This document shows positions 30,489 to 42,321 of a stretch of DNA of 64,000 nt, one piece after another. The stretch covers positions 248,001 to 312,000 of the forward strand of contig NZ_ATUZ01000014.1 of assembly GCF_000420465.1 (NCBI RefSeq), read 5' to 3'. How positions within the stretch are numbered: the first letter of the stretch is position 1; each line of letters opens with the position of its first letter. The stretch comes from Desulfovibrio desulfuricans DSM 642 (GTDB lineage Bacteria > Desulfobacterota > Desulfovibrionia > Desulfovibrionales > Desulfovibrionaceae). The notes under the pieces are model-generated. The model did not search any database and had not been told where the DNA came from. It was given only the letters and a program-made list of their open reading frames with translations. The translations under genes were made by a program, and so were the position numbers.

Positions 30489-30584
30489 CCGCGCGCGGCG
30501 CAACCCGCGCCACCGCTTGCAGTGATAACCGCAGATTGTGCGCCGTCGGGCCTTCCGGCGGCGCATTTGCCACAAGGAGTCCTC

Positions 30585-31772
30585 ATGGACCTTAAAGTGA
30601 ATTTCAGCGGCCGCGCCATCCGCTACACGGAAGAAGAAATCGCCGTGGTTGTCGAGGTCATGCGCAATGCCGACACGCTCACCCAGGGCGTGCACATGCG
30701 TGATTTTGAGAGCAAGTTTGCCAGTTACCAGGGCGTTGCCCCAGGCAGCTGCTTTGTGACCATGAACGGCGTTTCGGCTCTGGAGCTTTCGGCCCAGCTG
30801 TGCCGCTTCAAGCCCGGCGATGAAGTGGTCATGCCTTCGCACACCTTTACGGCCTCCGCCTACCCCTACATTAAAAAAGGCGCCACAATGGCCTGGGCTG
30901 ACGTTGACCTTCTGACCCGGGTCGTTACGGCCGAAAGCATCGAAAAAGCCATTACGCCCCGCACCAAGGCCGTTGTGGTGGTGCATCTGTACGGTTATGT
31001 GGCAGACATGGTCGGCATTGCCGCCCTGTGCAAAAAGCGTGGGCTTATCCTCATTGAAGACGCGGCCCAATCCATCGGTTCCGAGCTGAACGGCAAAAAG
31101 GCTGGCAGCTTCGGCGACATGGCCGTTTTTTCCTTCCATTCGCACAAAAATCTTACCACCCTTGGCGAGGGCGGCATGCTCTATGTGCGCGATCCCAAGC
31201 TGGCGGGCCTGGTGCCCACCCTGCGCCACAACGGGCATTGCGGCTATGATTTTGAGCGGCCCGACTACTGGAAGCCCGCCATGGGCAACGTTGATCTGCC
31301 CATGCTGGACGGGGAGCCACTGCAACCCAACAACTATTGTCTTGGCGAAGTGGAATGTGCGCTGGGGGCAAAGCTGCTTGAGCGTATCGACACCATCAAT
31401 GACGAAAAGCGCGCCCGCGCCCTGCGCTTCATTGATGCGCTGGCGGACTTTCCCGAGCTGGAGTTCCACCGCGAGGACTCGCGCCGCCACAACTACCACC
31501 TGCTCGCTGCGCGCATGACCACGGGCACCAAAGCCCGCGACCGCTTTATACGCGCCATGTTCAACGAAAAAGGCGTGAAGTGCGTGGTGCAGTATATTCC
31601 GCTCGACCGTTACGATTACTACCGCCGTTTGGGCATGGGCAAGGCCGACTGCCCCAATGCCGACACATTCTTTGACGCCATGATTTCCTTCCCCTTCCAG
31701 CACTGGCTGACGGATGAGGAATTTGACTACATGCTGGCTTCCACCCGCGAGGTTCTGGCCAGCCTGCGCTAA
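30585..31772 (+). CDS. DegT/DnrJ/EryC1-family sugar aminotransferase (KdnA-position)
   Basis: 395 residues with AAGGAG upstream. It is a PLP-dependent sugar aminotransferase: P-S-H-T-F-T-A-S-A-Y, E-D-A-A-Q-S-I-G (Asp159 to the PLP nitrogen), F-S-F-H-S-H-K-N-L-T-T-L-G-E-G-G (Lys188 Schiff base). Directly after the KdnB-like oxidase it would aminate the aldehyde at C8 of Kdo or a related acid. It does not look especially close to Shewanella KdnA, so this could be a different enzyme of the same step or a related sugar. Confidence 0.85.
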   Translation: MDLKVNFSGRAIRYTEEEIAVVVEVMRNADTLTQGVHMRDFESKFASYQGVAPGSCFVTMNGVSALELSAQLCRFKPGDEVVMPSHTFTASAYPYIKKGATMAWADVDLLTRVVTAESIEKAITPRTKAVVVVHLYGYVADMVGIAALCKKRGLILIEDAAQSIGSELNGKKAGSFGDMAVFSFHSHKNLTTLGEGGMLYVRDPKLAGLVPTLRHNGHCGYDFERPDYWKPAMGNVDLPMLDGEPLQPNNYCLGEVECALGAKLLERIDTINDEKRARALRFIDALADFPELEFHREDSRRHNYHLLAARMTTGTKARDRFIRAMFNEKGVKCVVQYIPLDRYDYYRRLGMGKADCPNADTFFDAMISFPFQHWLTDEEFDYMLASTREVLASLR

Positions 31773-31867
31773 CGCGGTCTGTATTGCCCCGGACGGCATC
31801 GGCATTTGCGATGTTGTCCGGGGTTTGCTCACTGCGTCCTGTCCCTTCCGCACAGCAGAGAACACAC

Positions 31868-33556
31868 GTGAAAGAACGCTGCATCGTCATACCTGCCATC
31901 AAGAAAAATGCCGTCATTCCTGACCAGCTTGTTAAAAAACTGGCCGGGGTTACGCTTGTGGAACGGGCCGTCAATACCGCGCGCGGCGTCTTGCCCGGCG
32001 ATGATATTGTTGTGCTGACCGACAGCCAGGAGATTGCGCTCATCTGCGAACGTGCGGGCGTGCGGCACCACTGGAACAAGGACCTGCGGTTCACCAGCCT
32101 TGATATCGTTACCGAAATGCGCGGGCTGCTGACAGAGCTTGCGCGGGAATACGAGCACTGCATGATTTTGCGCGCCTCCTGCCCGCTGCTCACATGGGTG
32201 GACGTGGAAGACGCCTGGAAGCGCTTTCGCGAGGCGCAGGCCGATAGCCTGGTGACGGTCAAGAGCATGCGCCAGCGCATCTGGAATGTGCAGGGCGAAG
32301 GGCTTGAGAGCCTGCTGGACGAAGACGCCGGGCACGACAGCGAAAAAATGCTGGTGGTGGAAAGCCGCGCGCTGATCATTTTGCGGCTTTCACTGCTGGA
32401 CAAGGCCAACGGCCACACGCTGGGGCGCGGCAAGATAGTGCCGTATTTTCTCAACGACAGGGCCATTGAAATTCAGGGCTATCAGGACTGGTGGATCTGC
32501 GAGCACCTTTTGCAGCGGCGGCATGTGGTCTTTGTGGTGGCTGGCTGGCCCGCCATCGGCATGGGGCATGTGTTCCGCGCGCTGATGCTGGCGCACGAGA
32601 TCACCAATCACAAGATCAGCTTTGTCTGCACGCGCGAGAGCGAGCTGGCGGTGGAAAGCATAGCCCGCAAAGACTACAAGATCGTACGCCAGGGCAACGA
32701 GGAGCTGGCAGACACCGTGCTGCGCATGCGGCCCGACCTTGTGGTCAACGATATTCTGAACACCACGGCGGCCTATATGGCGCGCCTGACCACGGCTGGC
32801 GTGCGCTGCGTCAATTTTGAGGATGAAGGCCCCGGTGCAGACTGGGCGCGGCTGGTGGTCAATGCCCTGTACGAAGACAGGGACAGCAACGAGCGCCTGC
32901 GCTACGGGCCGGATTATTTCTGCCTGAGGGATGAATTTCTGGGTGCAGCGCGCAATCCCTTCCGCCCTGAACTCAGGACAGTACTCATCACCTTTGGCGG
33001 CACGGATCTCAACGACTGCTCGCGCCGGGTGCTGGACATCATCGAACCCATCTGCCGGGCCTACGGCATCCGCATCCGCCTTGTGGCAGGGCCGGGCTAT
33101 GCCCACAAGGACGCCATGGAGGCGCATCTGGCACAGCTGGATAACCCGCTGGTGGAATTTACCTGGGCCACCAACGTCATGAGCCGCATGATGGAAGGGG
33201 CCGACCTTGCCATCTGCTCCGCAGGACGCACGGTGTACGAGCTGGCCCACATGCGTATTCCCTCAATGGTGCTGGCCCACCACGAGCGCGAGGCGCGCCA
33301 CACCTTTGCCCGCCCCCGCAACGGCTTTGCCTTTGTGGGCATCATGGACAGGGTCAGCGATGCCAAAATTCGCAATGTTTTTCTGGCCATGCTCAAGAAT
33401 CCCCGGCGCAAACGCTTTTGGGATCGCCAGAACGCCCTTAATTTTACGGTCAACAAGGGGCGTGTTGTAGCCCTTATGCAGAATATCCTGCAGGAAGGCG
33501 CAGCCACCCCGCAGGCGGAGGAAGATGCCGCCTCCGCAGAACCGCAGCAAGCGTAA
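31868..33556 (+). CDS. Fused CMP-sugar cytidylyltransferase-like/PseG-like protein
   Basis: 562 residues from a GTG; the frame is open to 31784. Residues 1-217 look like a NeuA/PseF-type cytidylyltransferase (I-V-I-P-A-I-K-K-N, T-D-S-Q-E-I, L-R-A-S-C-P-L-L), although the usual A-R-G-G-S-K loop reads A-I-K-K-N, so nucleotide binding may be altered. Residues 219-545 resemble PseG nucleotide-sugar hydrolase/GT-B, with G-M-G-H-V-F-R holding the catalytic-type His234 and T-F-G-G-T-D, S-A-G-R-T-V-Y-E near the C-terminus. It lies between an aminotransferase and an SpsF-like gene, suggesting activation of an acidic amino sugar. Exact activities are uncertain. Confidence 0.8.
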   Translation: MKERCIVIPAIKKNAVIPDQLVKKLAGVTLVERAVNTARGVLPGDDIVVLTDSQEIALICERAGVRHHWNKDLRFTSLDIVTEMRGLLTELAREYEHCMILRASCPLLTWVDVEDAWKRFREAQADSLVTVKSMRQRIWNVQGEGLESLLDEDAGHDSEKMLVVESRALIILRLSLLDKANGHTLGRGKIVPYFLNDRAIEIQGYQDWWICEHLLQRRHVVFVVAGWPAIGMGHVFRALMLAHEITNHKISFVCTRESELAVESIARKDYKIVRQGNEELADTVLRMRPDLVVNDILNTTAAYMARLTTAGVRCVNFEDEGPGADWARLVVNALYEDRDSNERLRYGPDYFCLRDEFLGAARNPFRPELRTVLITFGGTDLNDCSRRVLDIIEPICRAYGIRIRLVAGPGYAHKDAMEAHLAQLDNPLVEFTWATNVMSRMMEGADLAICSAGRTVYELAHMRIPSMVLAHHEREARHTFARPRNGFAFVGIMDRVSDAKIRNVFLAMLKNPRRKRFWDRQNALNFTVNKGRVVALMQNILQEGAATPQAEEDAASAEPQQA

Positions 33557-33578
33557 CCTGCTCCACAAAGGAACACCC

Positions 33579-34265
33579 ATGCGCAAGACCGGCAAGGTTA
33601 TAGCCATTGTTCAGGCCCGCCTCGGCTCCACGCGGCTCCCCATGAAATCACTGCTCTGTCTGCGCGATGTGCCCGTTATCGACTGGGTAACGCGGCGGCT
33701 GGCGCAGGCGGCAAAACTGGACGGCATCATGGTGGCCGTGCCGGATACGTCCCTTGACCGTGTGCTCGTGGAGCATCTGCAAAGGCGCGGCGTGCCCTGC
33801 GTTGCCGGTTCGGAGGACGATGTGCTGGCGCGGTTCTGCCTTGCGGCCCGCACGGCGGATGCCGGGCGCGTGGTGCGCGTGTGCGCCGATAATCCGCTCA
33901 TCTGGGCCGGGGCCATTGACCGGCTCGTGGATTTTTATGAGCAGGGCGGCTGGGACTATGCCTATAACCATATTCCGCGCAACAACCTCTGGCCCGACGG
34001 CCTTGGTGCGGAAATCCTCTCGCGCGAACTGCTGGAAGAACTGGACGCCAAGGCCGTCCAGACTTCGCAGCGTGAGCACTGCCTCAACTACATCTGGGAC
34101 AATGCCGCCAGCTTTAAAATAGGCACGTTTGACCCGGAAGAAGACTGGCTGCGCCGCCCCGAACTCAAGCTGGATATGGACAGGTCTGATGACTTTTGCC
34201 GTCTGGCGCTCAAGCCCATCCACCCCGACATGGACGCAAGGGATATTGTGCGCGTGTTTGGCTAG
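33579..34265 (+). CDS. SpsF-like cytidylyltransferase
   Basis: 228 residues with AAAGGA upstream. It begins I-A-I-V-Q-A-R-L-G-S-T-R-L-P-M-K-S-L, the nucleotide-binding signature of the SpsF/KdsB/NeuA superfamily. D-N-P-L-I and the middle D-Y-A-Y-N-H are further family features. It is 22 bases after the fused NeuA/PseG gene and ends the cluster. It may be the working cytidylyltransferase if the fused domain is degenerate. SpsF-like proteins occur in surface polysaccharide and pseudaminic/legionaminic-type clusters. Confidence 0.85.
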   Translation: MRKTGKVIAIVQARLGSTRLPMKSLLCLRDVPVIDWVTRRLAQAAKLDGIMVAVPDTSLDRVLVEHLQRRGVPCVAGSEDDVLARFCLAARTADAGRVVRVCADNPLIWAGAIDRLVDFYEQGGWDYAYNHIPRNNLWPDGLGAEILSRELLEELDAKAVQTSQREHCLNYIWDNAASFKIGTFDPEEDWLRRPELKLDMDRSDDFCRLALKPIHPDMDARDIVRVFG

Positions 34266-36070: not shown

Positions 36071-36493
36071 CTAGCGGCGTATGGCCAGCAGCGGCGTGTC
36101 GGTATTGCGCAGCACACGCTCTGTGATGGAGCCGAGCAGCATGTCTTGCAGCCCGTCGCGTCCGTCAGTGAACATGATTATAAGGTCGGCATTTTCCTCA
36201 TGCGCCACGCGAATGATGGTTTCAGCAGTAGTGCCTTCTTCTACGCGGCAGCGAACAGACCCGGCGGGTTTTTCCATTTCCGCAGCTACAGTGTTCAGCA
36301 GGGTTTGTCCCTTGGCCTTCTGCTCCGCCAGAAGTTCGGCGTGGGCCTCGCCGCCCACGATCTGGGGCAGCGGCTCAAAAATGTGCAGGAGGACAATATC
36401 GCCGCAGGCAAGGTTTTTGGCATGATTCAGGGCAGACTTGGCACGGTTCAGGCCGTTTTTGCCGCTCACAGGAATAAGAATGGTCTTGTACAT
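36071..36493 (-). CDS. Universal stress protein (UspA family)
   Basis: 140 residues, single Usp domain. It starts M-Y-K-T-I-L-I-P-V-S-G and ends with the ATP-binding pattern D-G-R-D-G-L-Q-D-M-L-L-G-S-I-T-E-R-V, which fits G-x2-G-x9-G-S. Proteins of this family are induced by starvation or stress; the specific role is unknown. It follows the large kinase-like gene by 58 bases on the same strand and may be its downstream operon partner. Confidence 0.92.
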   Translation of the reverse strand: MYKTILIPVSGKNGLNRAKSALNHAKNLACGDIVLLHIFEPLPQIVGGEAHAELLAEQKAKGQTLLNTVAAEMEKPAGSVRCRVEEGTTAETIIRVAHEENADLIIMFTDGRDGLQDMLLGSITERVLRNTDTPLLAIRR

Positions 36494-36551: not shown

Positions 36552-39500
36552 TCAGCGGCGCGGTGTCAGGCCGATGCGGTTGCGTTCAACCGCCACGGCC
36601 AGCTCGGGCAGCAGGTCGCGCAGTGCGTTCATGTCATTGGCCTTGGCGGCGCGCTCCACACAACGGGCCATACGGGCCAGCACGCGGAAGCCAAAGGCGT
36701 CAGATTCCGTGGCAATGCGGTTGGCCGCATCACCCACCACCGCGCAGCGGCGGTTTTTGAAGCCCTGTTGGGCATCGTCCATGGCGGCATCAAGCCGCGC
36801 CACAAGCTGCGGGATTGTTTGATCCGTTTCACGCGGGGCTGTGGGCTGCACAGGAGCCTGCGGCGCAAATACGGCTGGCTGTGGCTCCGCGGTTCTCTGC
36901 TCCGCAGGGGCCGCACGATAGCTCTCTGCCCCAAGGGCCTGTGCAGGTGCTGTTTCACCGGAGTGACCGCCTTGAGGCGCATGCTGGGCGTTGTCATGCC
37001 CGTTATGGCGTAGCGCCTCTGCTGCTCCTGCAATGAAATTCATAATGGAATTGCCAGGTGCCTTGCCCTTGAGGTGAGCGGCGGAACGCTGGGGTTCCGC
37101 AACTCCGGCAGATGACCCTGCGCGGGGCGTGCCAGCAAGTGCAGGGGACTCGGCCTGCACATCATCCTGACGTGGCATGTCCGCCAGATCCGCCATGAGA
37201 TCAGGCTTGCCGCCAGGCAGAGGCTCGTTGTCAGCCCCAAGGGGGCGGTCGCCAGCGCTGCCCAGCAGTTTGAGAATGAGCCGCCCTGTTGCGGTGCGCG
37301 GCATTTCAACCTGACGGGAACGTCTTTCATCGTCAGCATGACCGGAATCCTGCTTGGAATTCTGGTCGACCGTACCGGAGGCATCATCCTGCCTGGCGGG
37401 CTTGGTCATGGGCATGGGTTCGCCCACCCATTCCCCGGGGTGCGCGAGGCTGGGGCTGACATAGCTTTTTTCTTCTTTGGCGGGCGCAGCAAGCGGGCGA
37501 GTGGCAGATGCCGCAGACAGGGCATCCCGTGCGGAAGTCCGAGTCATGCCTTGCGCCAGACTTTGCACAGGACCTGACGCAGATTGGGGCGCAGCTTGAG
37601 GCGCAGACTTCGCCGCGGGGCTGGCTGTTTTGATGGGGGTGCCAATGGGCATGGGTTCACCCACCCATTCATCCTGAAGGCTGTAGGCATCCCATGCGCC
37701 CTTGCCAGCAGGCGCGGGGACATCAAAGGCTGCGGTGTTGACAGGAGACAGAGTGGCTTCTCCTGCTCGGCCTGTCATGGCCTTGAGAGGGTCGGCGCTT
37801 TCGGCGGCGGGTTGCTCTGCGGGCTGTTCTGCTGGTTCGGACATATCTGGTTCCGAAGGCAGGGAAGCCTCAAGAAATTCTGCCGGGGTAACTGTTTCCC
37901 TGGCCGCAGGGGTTGGGCCGGGGTGCTGTTCTGGCTCAGGCCATTCAGGGGTTTCAAAGCCCTCAGGCGTCTTGTCCGCCGGGGCAGACATTTGTTCCGT
38001 TACTTCTGGAACAGGTGTGGCTGCGGAGGTATCTGTGACGAGTTCCGCCTGTTCCACTGGTGCTGAGGCGGGGTTCTCTTGCTGTGCTGGCGCGCCCTCC
38101 GCATCGGATCCCCGTGCAGGTTCAGGCTCAGGCTCGCTCGCCTGCGGGTCAGCAGGGGTTTCTGCCGCCCACAGCGGGCCTTCAAGGCCAGCCGAGGCCA
38201 TAAATTCAGCGTCAGTGTTGTTCGCCGCCTGCGCGGGTTCCTGCTGCGGGTGCGCCACAGCAGCTTCCTGCGGTTCTTGTGCCGATGGCTCCGGCAAAAT
38301 CTCCGCAATAATTTCCGGCTGCTCTTCCGGCAAGGGGTCTGCATCGTCCTGCATGCTCAGAGGCACTGACTGCGGCGCATCGGGCAAAATATCCAGCGAT
38401 TCAGACTGCTGCGGTGCGGCCTCTTCTTCTACCGGGTCTGCTTTCCTTTCGACCGGGGCAGCACCAGCAGAGTCAGCATCGGCAGGAGCTGGAATAACGG
38501 CGGCAGGTTCCTCCAGGGAAATTTCTGGCGTGTCCGGCATGGCGGCAAGCGCCTGCCCGGCATCCTGCGCGGTGTTCTCGGGAGGCAAAAGATCCGTCAG
38601 TTCAATGGGCGCATCTTCTTCTGCCTGCGGGGAATCTTCCATCATGGGCAGCAGCATGCCAGACTGGTCGGCGGTGCCAAAATTCAGGGATTGCGGGGAA
38701 GACAGCAGCCCGTCATGCGACAGCGGCATTGTCAGCGGCTGAGAATACATGGGTGCGCCAGTGTCCGGCAGGGCATTCTGCAAGGAGGCGTCGTGGCCGA
38801 AGAGATCGGGCAGCTGGTTCTGCTCCGGTGCCTGTATGCTGGGTGCGGCATCAGCCGGTCCGTTCTCGGGTTCGGGCGAGCCGACCTCGTGAACGGGTAG
38901 GGGAATATCCTCTGCCGCAGAGGCAGGGACCGACACTGCTGACACCGCCGGGCCGTGGTCTGTAAATCCGGCTTCGTCCAGCACTTCGCGCAGGGTAGCG
39001 GCAAAGGCCTCCGCATCCACAGGTTCGAGCAGGGCGTGGGTGTAACCCGTGTCTGCCAGCTCATCCCAGCGGGTGTTGTCCTTGGTGACGGCAAGGGCCT
39101 TGAATACGGGTAGCCCGGCTTTGAGGGCTTCGGCCTCAAAGCGGCCCAGAGCATCCGCCTCTGTGGGGCCGTCGTGGGGGTACTGGGCCACGAGCATGAG
39201 AGCGGGGGCCTCGCGATTGCATTCCAGCGCTTCGCGCATGCTGCGGGCCTGGGTGCTGTTGCAGCCAAGGGTGGTTATCATGTGGGCCAGCGCCTGACGG
39301 TCAACGGCGCTTTCGGCCACCACGGTAATGGTGGGCGCGCGCTGTGGTTCCGGCGCAGCTTCTGTTCCGGTTTCGTTCTCCAGCGGCTTCAGGCGCAGGG
39401 TAAAGGCAATGGATGTTCCCTGGGGCCCGCATTCCACATTGAGGTACCCGCTGTTGGAACCGGCCAGTTCCCATGCGCGGGTGAGCGCCAGCGATGATCT

Positions 39501-41453
39501 GTCGCGCGGCGGAATGCCCGCCCCGGTGTCGGTCACAGTAAACAGCAGATGCCCCGGATCGGCTGTTTCGGGCACTCGGCGTATAGAAAGGTGCACTGCG
39601 CCTCTTGTGGTGGCGCGCACTGCGCTTTCAAGCAGCAGGCCGAGGGTTTCGCGCAGGGCTTTGGCCTGCCCTTCATACATGTGCCCCAGCAGCGGGGGCA
39701 TGTACCACGCAAGGCCAATCCCCGAGTTCTCGGCGGCGGCGGTCACGGCATCGTGCGCCTCGCGCACAAGATGCTGCAGGTTGAAGGCCGTGCGCTGTTC
39801 GCCCACGCTGGTCTGGTCCAGCTCCTTGCCGGGATTGTCAATAATTCTGGCAAGATCGCCAGCAGCGCCAAGCATGTTTTCAGCATACTGGCGCACCGCA
39901 GGGGGCAGGGAGCAATGGCCGAGAGCCGCGCCTTCGCGCATGAGGCGATCCAGCGGCGGGCGCAGCAGGTTTTCCCACATGCCTGGGTCAACGGCGGAGG
40001 CTGATTTTTTCTGGTTTCTGGCAGGCGCTGCAACTGGTTCCAGATCGGAATTGTCAGAAATGTCCACCGGCAGTGCGGAAAAGTCAGCGGCGGTTTTGCC
40101 TGTGACGGCAGAGGGAGGCAAGAGACGCAGATTGGGGTCGTCCAGCGGGGTGTCAAGACTGATGGGGCCATCGTTTGGCCCGGCGCCAAGGCTGGAACTG
40201 ATCAGCGCCGCATCAAGCGCGGCGGAGTTGCGTTTGCCCTCGGCTGCGGATTCGCGCTTTGCGCCCTTCTTGGCCTCTTCGGCCTGGGCAGCGTCACGCG
40301 GCAGGCCTGTTCCGGCAATGAGCAGGGCGCTCAGGGCCGTGCCCCACAGGGGAGCAGAGGCCAGCAGATTTGCGGCGTATCCGTAATCAAGCCCCATGAC
40401 GCCCGCAGCCACAAACAGGGGCGGCACAAGACAGCCCAAAAGAAAACGCCGTGCGCCGCCAAGGCCCATGATGGCCCCGCCAAGGGCGCTCAGGGTAAAG
40501 ATCACCGTGCAGGCAGGCCAGAGGGAAAGAAAACGAATGCTCCAGCTAAAGCCGGGAAGGAGCGGCAGCAGGGCCAGCGCCGCGCCCGGCAGGGAAAGCA
40601 ATATAAACTGGGCGTCCAGCAGGGGCGAGCGGCCCCTTGTGCGCATAAGATGACGGCCCACGTGGGGCAGGAGCATGAGCGCCAGACCAGGCGCAAGTAC
40701 TGCCAGAGCCTGATTCAGGGTTATGTGGCCGGAGCCGTAGGCAGGCATGCCAAATATGCCCTGCGCCAGAGCAACACCCACGTAAAGCGCAGTCCAGATG
40801 CGCCACTGGCCCCTCTCGGAGAGCCCGCGCAAAAGGCACAGCAGCATGACCACGGCAAGAGCCAGCAGGGCGGCTGTGCCCGCGAGGCTGCCCCAGTTGG
40901 AGGCTGCGTCCTGCGGGCTGCGAAGCATGGGTGAAAACCAGATGCCCGGCAGGCCGTCCAGACGGATATAGCAGGTGATCGGGTCGGCCCCCGGTTCGGG
41001 CAGCAGCATCACATTGCGGTGGCTCGGGAGAATCTCGCGCCATTCAACGCTGTCTGTCGCCGGGTTGGCGGCGGGTTCGTACAGAACAGGGTCAGCCGGA
41101 ACATCCGGCCCCATGTCCAGCAGCATGGCCTGTGAGCGTCCCCCAGCGGGCAGAGGAGCCAGGGTAAAGCGCAGCCACATCACGCCGGTGACTCGCGGCA
41201 GTTCCTTGACATTCAGGGGCTTGAACATCTGGCTGTTGGAAGGGGCGGCAGCCTCCTCCACATCCATGGTTCCTGTCACGTCAATAAAGTATTGCAGGTC
41301 GGGCAGCAGCGGCGTGTTTGCAGAACGCAACACGGGCGGAATCATGCCGCTGTGCGCCGTGGAAGGCGCTCCAATACCTGCGCAGGTTATGCACAAAAAA
41401 AGGGCGCAGGCGCGCAGCAACGCACGCAAAATGCCGGAGGAAGTGAGAGTCAT
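36552..41453 (-). CDS. Giant hybrid histidine-kinase-like protein with 7TM-DISM sensor and degenerate phosphotransfer sites
   Basis: 1633 residues. Signal-like N-terminus (10-35), periplasmic 7TMR-DISMED2-like domain (45-190), about seven membrane helices (190-385), then a kinase-like region: H513 in G-H-C-S-L-P-P (H and P of an H-box but no Glu/Arg), an N-box-like L-L-E-S-A without the conserved Asn, and a good D-T-G-A-G G1 box (642-646). A receiver-like domain (705-830) lacks the acceptor Asp (A-L-M-L-V-A-Q). A roughly 700-residue Pro/Glu/Ala-rich linker follows, with E-W-V-G-E-P-M-P repeated twice. The last 90 residues resemble an Hpt helix bundle but with Asn where His is expected. It is probably a signalling scaffold or an atypical kinase. 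Confidence 0.75.
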   Translation of the reverse strand: MTLTSSGILRALLRACALFLCITCAGIGAPSTAHSGMIPPVLRSANTPLLPDLQYFIDVTGTMDVEEAAAPSNSQMFKPLNVKELPRVTGVMWLRFTLAPLPAGGRSQAMLLDMGPDVPADPVLYEPAANPATDSVEWREILPSHRNVMLLPEPGADPITCYIRLDGLPGIWFSPMLRSPQDAASNWGSLAGTAALLALAVVMLLCLLRGLSERGQWRIWTALYVGVALAQGIFGMPAYGSGHITLNQALAVLAPGLALMLLPHVGRHLMRTRGRSPLLDAQFILLSLPGAALALLPLLPGFSWSIRFLSLWPACTVIFTLSALGGAIMGLGGARRFLLGCLVPPLFVAAGVMGLDYGYAANLLASAPLWGTALSALLIAGTGLPRDAAQAEEAKKGAKRESAAEGKRNSAALDAALISSSLGAGPNDGPISLDTPLDDPNLRLLPPSAVTGKTAADFSALPVDISDNSDLEPVAAPARNQKKSASAVDPGMWENLLRPPLDRLMREGAALGHCSLPPAVRQYAENMLGAAGDLARIIDNPGKELDQTSVGEQRTAFNLQHLVREAHDAVTAAAENSGIGLAWYMPPLLGHMYEGQAKALRETLGLLLESAVRATTRGAVHLSIRRVPETADPGHLLFTVTDTGAGIPPRDRSSLALTRAWELAGSNSGYLNVECGPQGTSIAFTLRLKPLENETGTEAAPEPQRAPTITVVAESAVDRQALAHMITTLGCNSTQARSMREALECNREAPALMLVAQYPHDGPTEADALGRFEAEALKAGLPVFKALAVTKDNTRWDELADTGYTHALLEPVDAEAFAATLREVLDEAGFTDHGPAVSAVSVPASAAEDIPLPVHEVGSPEPENGPADAAPSIQAPEQNQLPDLFGHDASLQNALPDTGAPMYSQPLTMPLSHDGLLSSPQSLNFGTADQSGMLLPMMEDSPQAEEDAPIELTDLLPPENTAQDAGQALAAMPDTPEISLEEPAAVIPAPADADSAGAAPVERKADPVEEEAAPQQSESLDILPDAPQSVPLSMQDDADPLPEEQPEIIAEILPEPSAQEPQEAAVAHPQQEPAQAANNTDAEFMASAGLEGPLWAAETPADPQASEPEPEPARGSDAEGAPAQQENPASAPVEQAELVTDTSAATPVPEVTEQMSAPADKTPEGFETPEWPEPEQHPGPTPAARETVTPAEFLEASLPSEPDMSEPAEQPAEQPAAESADPLKAMTGRAGEATLSPVNTAAFDVPAPAGKGAWDAYSLQDEWVGEPMPIGTPIKTASPAAKSAPQAAPQSASGPVQSLAQGMTRTSARDALSAASATRPLAAPAKEEKSYVSPSLAHPGEWVGEPMPMTKPARQDDASGTVDQNSKQDSGHADDERRSRQVEMPRTATGRLILKLLGSAGDRPLGADNEPLPGGKPDLMADLADMPRQDDVQAESPALAGTPRAGSSAGVAEPQRSAAHLKGKAPGNSIMNFIAGAAEALRHNGHDNAQHAPQGGHSGETAPAQALGAESYRAAPAEQRTAEPQPAVFAPQAPVQPTAPRETDQTIPQLVARLDAAMDDAQQGFKNRRCAVVGDAANRIATESDAFGFRVLARMARCVERAAKANDMNALRDLLPELAVAVERNRIGLTPRR

Positions 41454-41580: not shown

Positions 41581-42321
41581 CTAGCGCAGGTTTCTGATTA
41601 CGTCAGAAACGGACTGCCCGTCAGGAGCGCGCGCAGCGGGGTTGGCTGCCAGCAGACGTTGCCATGCCTTCATGGCGTCATCCTTGCGCTTGAGGTCGAA
41701 GTAAAGCACCACGCCCTCGTTGAACATGGCGTTTTCGTGCCGGGGGTTGACGCTGGAGGCGCGGCGGAAACTCGTCACGGCCTTGTCGTATTCGCCAAGC
41801 TCACGGTACATGATGCCAAGGTCTGTCAGCACATCGGCATTGTCGGGCGCAAGAGCCAGAGAACGTTCGTAGGCGCTGGCGGCCTTGCGCGACTGACCGG
41901 TGTCAAAATAGAGGTTGCCAAGGTCTGTCCAGTTCTGCGCGTCCTTGGGGTTGGCAAGGACATTTTGTTCCATGGAGGCGATTTTGGCTGCCAGCTCAGG
42001 CGGAATGGGAGGCTGGTTGTCCTGCTTGGCCTGGCCGGAAGGCTGAGCGGAAGGCTGCGAGGCCGTCTGCGTCTGGCCTGCGGGCGTCTGCTGCGCTGGC
42101 TCCTGCGTGAATATTGACGGCGCAAGGCTGCCCACATAGACGCCCAGCACAAGGGCCACGGCGATGCCTACAAAAAAAACACCCTTGCTGACCTTGCTGA
42201 TGCCGTGGGGCTGTTCAGCCTGGGGGGCGGTTTCCGGGGTGGATGTGGGGTCGGCGGGCGTGGAAAGCTGCACTGCCGTGGAAGTATCTGCGGACTTTTT
42301 TTTGGGCTTTTTGTTTGCCAT
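41581..42321 (-). CDS. TPR-repeat membrane protein
   Basis: 246 residues. A Lys/Thr/Pro-rich cytoplasmic start (1-42), one transmembrane helix (about 46-66), a Gln/Pro-rich stretch and three TPR units (about 120-225; W-T-D-L-G-N-L-Y-F, V-L-T-D-L-G-I-M-Y, A-M-F-N-E-G-V-V-L). The arrangement resembles NrfG/CcmH-type and other periplasmic TPR proteins. GAGGAATAC precedes the ATG. It lies 127 bases upstream of the giant kinase-like gene on the same strand; a functional link is possible but unproven. Confidence 0.8.
   Translation of the reverse strand: MANKKPKKKSADTSTAVQLSTPADPTSTPETAPQAEQPHGISKVSKGVFFVGIAVALVLGVYVGSLAPSIFTQEPAQQTPAGQTQTASQPSAQPSGQAKQDNQPPIPPELAAKIASMEQNVLANPKDAQNWTDLGNLYFDTGQSRKAASAYERSLALAPDNADVLTDLGIMYRELGEYDKAVTSFRRASSVNPRHENAMFNEGVVLYFDLKRKDDAMKAWQRLLAANPAARAPDGQSVSDVIRNLR

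Follow-up and report, generated by a model that had tools for sequence, protein, structure and literature searches.

A 1633-residue protein encoded in Desulfovibrio desulfuricans DSM 642 has the build of a hybrid histidine kinase and lacks the acceptor residue at every one of its three phosphotransfer sites. It is probably a catalytically dead kinase that has been kept as a receptor scaffold and that acts, in the manner of RcsD, RetS and DivL, through protein contact. Pseudo-kinases and pseudo-receivers are known singly; here one conserved protein is without all three sites. The gene lies in the window, the stretch of 64,000 nucleotides that was analysed, and all positions below are those of the window.

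Domain order and degenerate sites

The open reading frame of 1633 residues that a preliminary description had placed at 36552-41453 is real and lies on the minus strand. A sequencing or frameshift error is ruled out by the same long open frame in many homologues. From the N-terminus the domains are a predicted periplasmic sensor, a membrane region, DHp, HATPase, receiver, a linker of ~700 residues and a C-terminal four-helix bundle. The gene and the features up to the receiver are as follows.

36552-41453, minus strand: whole gene, 1633-residue pseudo-hybrid histidine kinase, 7TMR-DISM-like
41349-41453, minus strand: N-terminal hydrophobic signal or anchor segment, residues 1-35 (hydropathy)
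40956-41303, minus strand: 7TMR-DISMED2-like sensor, predicted periplasmic, residues 51-166 (Pfam)
40299-40898, minus strand: membrane region, residues 186-385 (hydropathy)
39819-39992, minus strand: pseudo-DHp, residues 488-545
39969-39971, minus strand: His column, N495
39915-39917, minus strand: H513, the His first proposed as acceptor
39378-39797, minus strand: pseudo-HATPase, residues 553-692, with the G1 box DTGAG at 39516-39530
38964-39338, minus strand: pseudo-receiver, residues 706-830
39183-39185, minus strand: receiver Asp column, Q757
39024-39026, minus strand: receiver Lys column, E810

Pfam matches to the window protein are sub-threshold for both HATPase (26.3 bits, cut-off 26.4) and 7TMR-DISMED2 (17.9 bits, cut-off 22), and one further match is at chance level. 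Among relatives, 7TMR-DISMED2 is over its cut-off in L118, L207 and L208 and under it in L122 and L103. The membrane region has six hydropathy peaks, clustered at residues 186-381, and one weaker segment recognised by eye, giving a predicted seven helices. The Pfam 7TMR-DISM_7TM profile has no match in the window protein and in a search of the protein's own genome matches another place only; in relatives it is over cut-off in L208 alone (147.6 bits) and under it in L118, L122, L103 and L207.

The phosphotransfer sites were located in an alignment of the window protein with 75 relatives, which we selected from the matches, and the site columns were anchored on L118, a relative with its boxes present. 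Five kinases (L069-L073) whose match is confined to the kinase-receiver core were left out. The wide alignment was made without iterations, so its gappy regions are less reliable, and the lengths given for relatives are those of stop-to-stop open frames, not of proteins. The H-box of the window protein reads WENLLRPPL. The preliminary description took H513 for its His; alignment with relatives reading SHDLRTPL and with solved kinases instead puts the His column at N495. H513 lies 18 residues past N495, at a position that varies across 40 own-genus rows (H in 12, N in 6, Q in 5, R in 4, other residues in the rest). Neither conserved nor correctly placed, it is ruled out as the phosphoacceptor. 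The same description had allowed that its sites might prove misplaced. For H513 this was so, but the correct site also lacks a His.

The losses at the N-box, at the receiver Asp and in the Hpt-like end had been called correctly. Asn of the N-box is replaced by S610 and is found in seven of 74 rows at that column; the receiver Asp is replaced by Q757 (Asp in 24 of 74 rows), its partner Lys by E810 (Lys in 22 of 74) and the acidic pair of the receiver by A713/E714. An earlier placement of the Asp column at A/V/I was dropped when the wider alignment put it at Q757. The Hpt-like end has Asn, N1578, for His, which occurs at this column in one row of 72 (L108), and the H-box His occurs in three of 71 aligned rows (L118, L122 and L123, all from one other genus). 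When the 66 rows that are complete at four sites are compared, 42 have none of the four residues (the H-box and Hpt His, the N-box Asn and the receiver Asp), 16 keep the receiver Asp only, three keep His, Asn and Asp, and five show other mixtures. Published rates of missing sites are 0.9% for the HisKA His, 2.0% for the receiver Asp and 0.9% for the Hpt His (PMC12632262).

Histidines conserved elsewhere do exist in the own-genus rows, namely H567 (32 of 39), H635 (31 of 38) and H806 (38 of 43), but none is at a known acceptor position. That phosphate signalling persists via an unrecognised site such as H567 or H806, both of them well kept, is scarcely credible, as H567 is also replaced by Y or S and H806 by L, F or C.

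The G1 box DTGAG (residues 642-646) is kept, as had been claimed; of the 70 rows compared, 64 conserve its Asp and 63 its first Gly. The further claim that all domains are retained holds for the fold regions but not for the ATP lid and the G2 box. The G2 Gly positions are S654/A656, and the distance from the G1 Asp to G2 is 14 residues in 58 of 70 rows and 10-20 in nine, against 34 in the three rows with an H-box His; therefore ~20 residues of the lid are missing. A structure model of the HK-REC core was unusable (mean pLDDT 38.5).

The protein departs from a functional hybrid histidine kinase at the H-box His, at the N-box, lid and G2, at the receiver Asp and Lys, and at the Hpt His. In sequence it does fit a pseudo-histidine kinase, with kinase homology but without the acceptor His: at N495 the His is absent, and a profile of the HK region (45 rows, three with intact sites) matches the solved chain 7z8n, a named histidine kinase, at 101 bits. 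Lack of autokinase activity is predicted. The preliminary description had pictured a sensor that binds but does not relay phosphate. Its second half is well supported by the alignment, where all three acceptor sites are missing and the genus shares these losses; its first half is weaker as regards ATP, since G2, the N-box Asn and the greater part of the lid are missing and only the G1 Asp and Gly remain.

With the G1 Asp and Gly conserved in nearly every row, nucleotide or other small-molecule binding could nevertheless have been preserved. It can be argued that a remodelled HATPase pocket binds nucleotide or another small ligand and that this binding, not catalysis, is a cytoplasmic input. 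W583 and F638 are conserved at 99%, the pseudo-HATPase is under strong purifying selection, and DivL offers a precedent by weakly binding an ATP analogue (PMC4211667). We regard this as unlikely, given what the pocket has lost and that the whole HATPase is missing from five own-genus members.

Family, selection and evolutionary route

In a first draw, all 37 own-genus genomes matched, one of them (63% complete) by a fragment only. In a larger draw, searched at E 1e-6 with the first 418 residues, 76 of 79 matched, and the genomes without a match, three in number, are 63-77% complete. Family-wide, the larger draw gave matches in 150 of 288 genomes, spread over 18 of 44 genera. Only one internal stop (G311) occurs among the matches listed.

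Comparison with three close homologues, L139, L140 and L034, gives dN/dS values in the kinase part of 0.00-0.12 (DHp) and 0.05-0.08 (HATPase). The receiver has 0.13-0.14, the linker 0.24-0.31 and the C-terminal bundle 0.00-0.01. The more distant L035 and L036 give 0.09-0.23 in the four domains where estimable, with dS near saturation. Judged by these ratios, the gene is not decaying and every pseudo-domain is under purifying selection. In the comparison with homologues that had been proposed as a check, relatives share the losses and are under purifying selection, so the losses are not chance. A sensor kinase decaying after the loss of its pathway, and kept for its sensor part only or by chance, would explain the graded losses across relatives, including the full absence of the HATPase in five short members. 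Such a relic is nonetheless very improbable, as selection acts on every pseudo-domain, the gene is present in 76 of 79 own-genus genomes with the single internal stop mentioned above, and a conserved motif is maintained within a fast-evolving linker.

The relatives in question, which lack the HATPase, are the own-genus members L061, L064, L065, L066 and L134, with open frames of 742-873 residues. All keep the sensor, and the pseudo-receiver is kept in L064, L065, L066 and L134, not in L061. At the other extreme of length, a 2962-residue open frame in L117 (377-9262, plus strand) has a very long N-terminal extension; its sensor match starts at residue 1739 (query residue 141).

The alignment establishes, at the level of sequence, common descent with kinases that keep their phosphotransfer sites. 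The H, N, G1 and G2 boxes are all present in L208 and L209, together with those of the receiver and the Hpt domain (AHTIKG), and PAS domains occur in L208 in addition. Because L208 and L209 match only weakly over the sensor (E 2e-14 and 5e-9), they serve as an architectural outgroup more than as proven orthologues. L118, L122, L123 and L207 keep the H, N, lid, G2 and receiver sites and have no Hpt His, and the last Gly of their G1 box is Ser. In L201-L204 and L206 the kinase boxes are kept, the receiver is without Asp and Lys, and there is no Hpt His where the bundle aligns (the bundle of L201 sits in another open frame, and L205 is unaligned over the kinase). The g24 rows L103-L105 and L133 show yet another state, with His and Asn absent and the receiver Asp and Lys kept.

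A tree of the kinase-receiver region was built by a quick method without bootstrap from 63 of the 76 rows, filtered by length and presence of the HATPase, and ten added kinases, with L208-L211 as root; the lid columns dropped out, and the His and Asn columns stayed. The 60 lid-less kinases form one clade in it (SH-aLRT 99.9). On a second, unrooted tree of the sensor (74 of 76 rows), the His changes state once and the receiver Asp at least seven times. When that tree is drawn from its midpoint, the intact g35 rows are nested inside, not outside, the rest, so the case for a single kinase loss rests on the rooted tree. Collectively, the kinase loss looks like one event and the receiver loss like a recurrent one, and long branches and open forks limit finer evolutionary claims. 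Living relatives include forms with every site, forms with the sites of kinase and receiver, of the kinase alone or of the receiver alone, forms with no site left, and forms that lack the domain; these intermediate stages make the route from enzyme to scaffold testable.

Linker motif, C-terminal bundle and neighbouring genes

The remaining features of the protein and its two neighbours are as follows.

36834-38948, minus strand: low-complexity Pro/Ala/Glu-rich linker, residues 836-1540 (composition)
37644-37670, minus strand: motif copy 1, EWVGEPMPI, residues 1262-1270
37407-37433, minus strand: motif copy 2, EWVGEPMPM, residues 1341-1349
36567-36815, minus strand: pseudo-Hpt four-helix bundle, residues 1547-1629
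36720-36722, minus strand: Hpt His column, N1578
41581-42321, minus strand: upstream TPR protein, 246 residues (Pfam)
36071-36493, minus strand: downstream universal stress protein, Usp (Pfam, 86.6 bits)

The linker is probably disordered, judged from its composition, and carries a motif of nine residues in which EWVGEPxP precedes I, V, M or L. The pattern [DE]WVG[ED]PxP occurs in 86 copies across 48 of 70 linkers, 28-160 residues apart where repeated, and the exact motif is absent from the other 22; 200 composition shuffles of the linkers gave zero copies. The fixed letters of the motif are set by the search pattern, and the free evidence is its recurrence and the following residue, which is hydrophobic in all but one of 85 cases. 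The codons vary synonymously, so the peptide is what is conserved. Searched for as DNA, the motif has exact matches in 76 of the 288 family genomes; it was not found in the 138 family genomes without a detected copy of the gene, and a reversed-pattern control had no match in any of the 288. In the first draw of 37 genomes, 28 of 29 motif hits lie inside this pseudo-kinase gene and the last falls in an unrelated frame of 187 residues from another family. In the larger draw the location was checked for part of the hits, and two of these, on G311:C118, fall in a frame that also holds a C-terminal bundle; a further hit lies on G118:C165.

The motif has been gained or lost at least eight times on the unrooted sensor tree. 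It is absent in all five HATPase-less rows and in 22 of 69 rows with a HATPase; a link between motif and HATPase was considered and abandoned, as nothing was significant and only two independent contrasts are available. Among the papers searched, WVGEP turned up in two, both on myocilin. A second recurring string, LPDL[FL], is seen in 33 of 70 linkers, in the window protein around residue 883 (38805-38807).

An Hpt bundle that lacks its His is the best reading of the C-terminal region. The structure prediction suggested for it in the preliminary description was carried out with two sequences, the window protein and L033, and AlphaFold gave a four-helix bundle with a mean pLDDT of 79.5 (56-60 for the other four models). 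Foldseek with this model placed Hpt domains at ranks 1-4 (HptB 7c1i, then 3myf) at E 0.04-0.1, with no match at 0.001 and other helical bundles close behind. A profile search of the PDB returned mostly designed helical bundles, with the HptB chain 7c1i tenth (E 0.038). The Pfam Hpt profile does not match the window protein. Five relatives do show a match: L207 (25.4 bits) and L208 exceed the cut-off of 24.6, and L118 (21.0 bits), L122 (20.5) and L103 (16.9) are sub-threshold. In L118, L122, L103 and L207 the match falls on the region that corresponds to the bundle. The bundle occurs in one copy in its own genome. Within the bundle, 60 of 70 rows share a Cys at residue 1598 (36660-36662), among them L118 with its intact kinase sites.

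The TPR gene lies on the same strand, 127 nt upstream of the pseudo-kinase gene, and a TPR homologue is found on the same strand within 2.5 kb upstream in 57 of the 65 loci whose flank measures 800 nt or more (10 of 75 were too short). The TPR protein has a lysine-rich start and one hydrophobic segment, followed by the TPR repeats; given this start and segment, the repeats are probably periplasmic and would adjoin the sensor. Of the eight loci without a TPR homologue, three from the own genus (L047, L050 and L051) have a Nudix-like frame in its place, by eye. The uspA gene that had been noted next to the kinase is the Usp gene, 58 nt downstream. This linkage is less conserved, with Usp in 26 of 75 loci and a PLD/cardiolipin-synthase-like gene in 32 of 75, contig ends being uncorrected. 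Elsewhere in the window, a DegT-type aminotransferase, a frame of 590 residues that weakly matches NTP-transferase, and a cytidylyltransferase stand in a row at 30522-34265 on the plus strand, which suggests a nucleotide-activated sugar pathway.

Proposed function and comparison with known systems

Action through contact is the most plausible, because the receptor cannot relay phosphate yet keeps its folded domains. A signal would be sensed by the 7TMR-DISMED2-like domain in the periplasm, probably in concert with the TPR protein of the upstream gene, and the membrane region would relay a conformational change to the cytoplasmic module of pseudo-DHp, HATPase and receiver. This module may dimerise and would be unable to phosphorylate itself. 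The output would be protein contact, with the module and the pseudo-Hpt bundle binding and biasing other two-component proteins. The long flexible arm could offer one or more EWVGEPxP-hydrophobic peptides, which might dock a partner, presumably another signalling protein, or fold back onto the protein's own domains. Scaffold-type signalling, the function first suggested for the protein, is thus the best remaining reading, and the linker motif, the very conserved C-terminal bundle and the TPR neighbour appear to support it. Counting against it, the G1 Asp and Gly persist, the HATPase and the motif are not universal and the TPR linkage fails in 8 of 65 loci.

A more specific variant is a modulator of the RetS or DivL type, in which the pseudo-DHp would heterodimerise with an intact hybrid kinase from its own cell, thereby shifting the balance of kinase and phosphatase in that partner. 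RetS sets the precedent, as it inhibits GacS via heterodimerisation (PMC12189002). Natural candidates are the two closest own-genome relatives of the kinase core, both HisKA-receiver-Hpt hybrids on the same contig and the only two other matches in an own-genome search at E 0.001 (C14:169586, E 4e-6; C14:229540, E 6e-5). HisKA and Hpt are both over cut-off in these frames, which by eye read SHEIRTPL/SHDMRTPL and AHTVKG/AHACKN and have acidic receiver sites. However, the similarity is weak (30% and 24%), and the 20 HisKA regions of the genome, which also has five Hpt matches, leave 18 other candidates. We hold this variant to be somewhat unlikely.

The scaffold reading can also be extended, tentatively and with more doubt than belief, to the idea that, throughout the clade, a phosphorelay receptor was converted into a purely structural one. 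One His loss with lid shortening would have been followed by a disordered arm whose repeated nine-residue docking peptide is the real output, recruiting a putative partner or plugging the protein's own vacated domains, and the pseudo-Hpt would form a second contact. If true, this would be a new mode of peptide recognition within two-component signalling, and the repeated motif offers a direct handle on the role of a phosphate-free 'kinase'.

Among characterised proteins, RcsD, from the Rcs phosphorelay of enterobacteria, is one of the closest. It has a degenerate receiver-like domain. We know of no 7TMR-DISM sensor or EWVGEP arm in it. The best NCBIfam model for the window protein is TorS, far below cut-off, and the second is RcsD (E 3e-10, 38.7 bits against a cut-off of 634); with its equivalog score below cut-off and N1578 in place of the Hpt His, the window protein is not an RcsD. 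RcsD sits in the membrane, carries an inactive HATPase part and contacts the regulator IgaA through both its periplasmic and its cytoplasmic regions (PMC7418988), and its Hpt domain hands phosphate to RcsB (PMC3762810). The window protein is likewise a predicted membrane protein with an inactive-looking HATPase part, but unlike RcsD it lacks the Hpt His, as do 71 of 72 rows.

RetS, to our knowledge, has no pseudo-Hpt or motif arm. Next after 7z8n, the HK-region profile matches RetS (6dk8, 97 bits, second), and the pseudokinase DivL (4q20, 67 bits) is among the next-best chains. RetS of Pseudomonas is a 7TMR-DISM histidine kinase (PMC6107284) that siphons or removes phosphate from GacS (PMC12189002); its solved chain keeps SHEIRTP, whereas the window protein is without the H-box His. 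DivL of Caulobacter is a pseudo-histidine kinase with Tyr at the His site and no autokinase activity that works through DivK (PMC4211667) and is required for full CckA activity (PMC9491836). It differs in keeping the N, G1, F and G2 boxes and in having PAS sensors (PMC4211667).

The 7TMR-DISM receptors LadS and RgsP have the plan of DISMED2, seven helices and a cytoplasmic module (PMC6107284), which the window protein may follow. RgsP acts with a partner, RgsM, and differs in having a catalytic output, an EAL phosphodiesterase (PMC6107284), and LadS differs in trans-phosphorylating GacS (PMC12189002). No paper on 7TMR-DISM or pseudokinase histidine kinases in Desulfovibrio was found in a literature search that covered few subscription journals. 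Pseudo-receivers of the ShkA/CikA type resemble the present one in regulating by contact within a hybrid kinase, but theirs control a kinase that autophosphorylates (PMC12632262). Set beside these pseudo-kinases and pseudo-receivers, a conserved protein that has lost all its sites and carries a repeated peptide in its linker is new within the reach of these searches.
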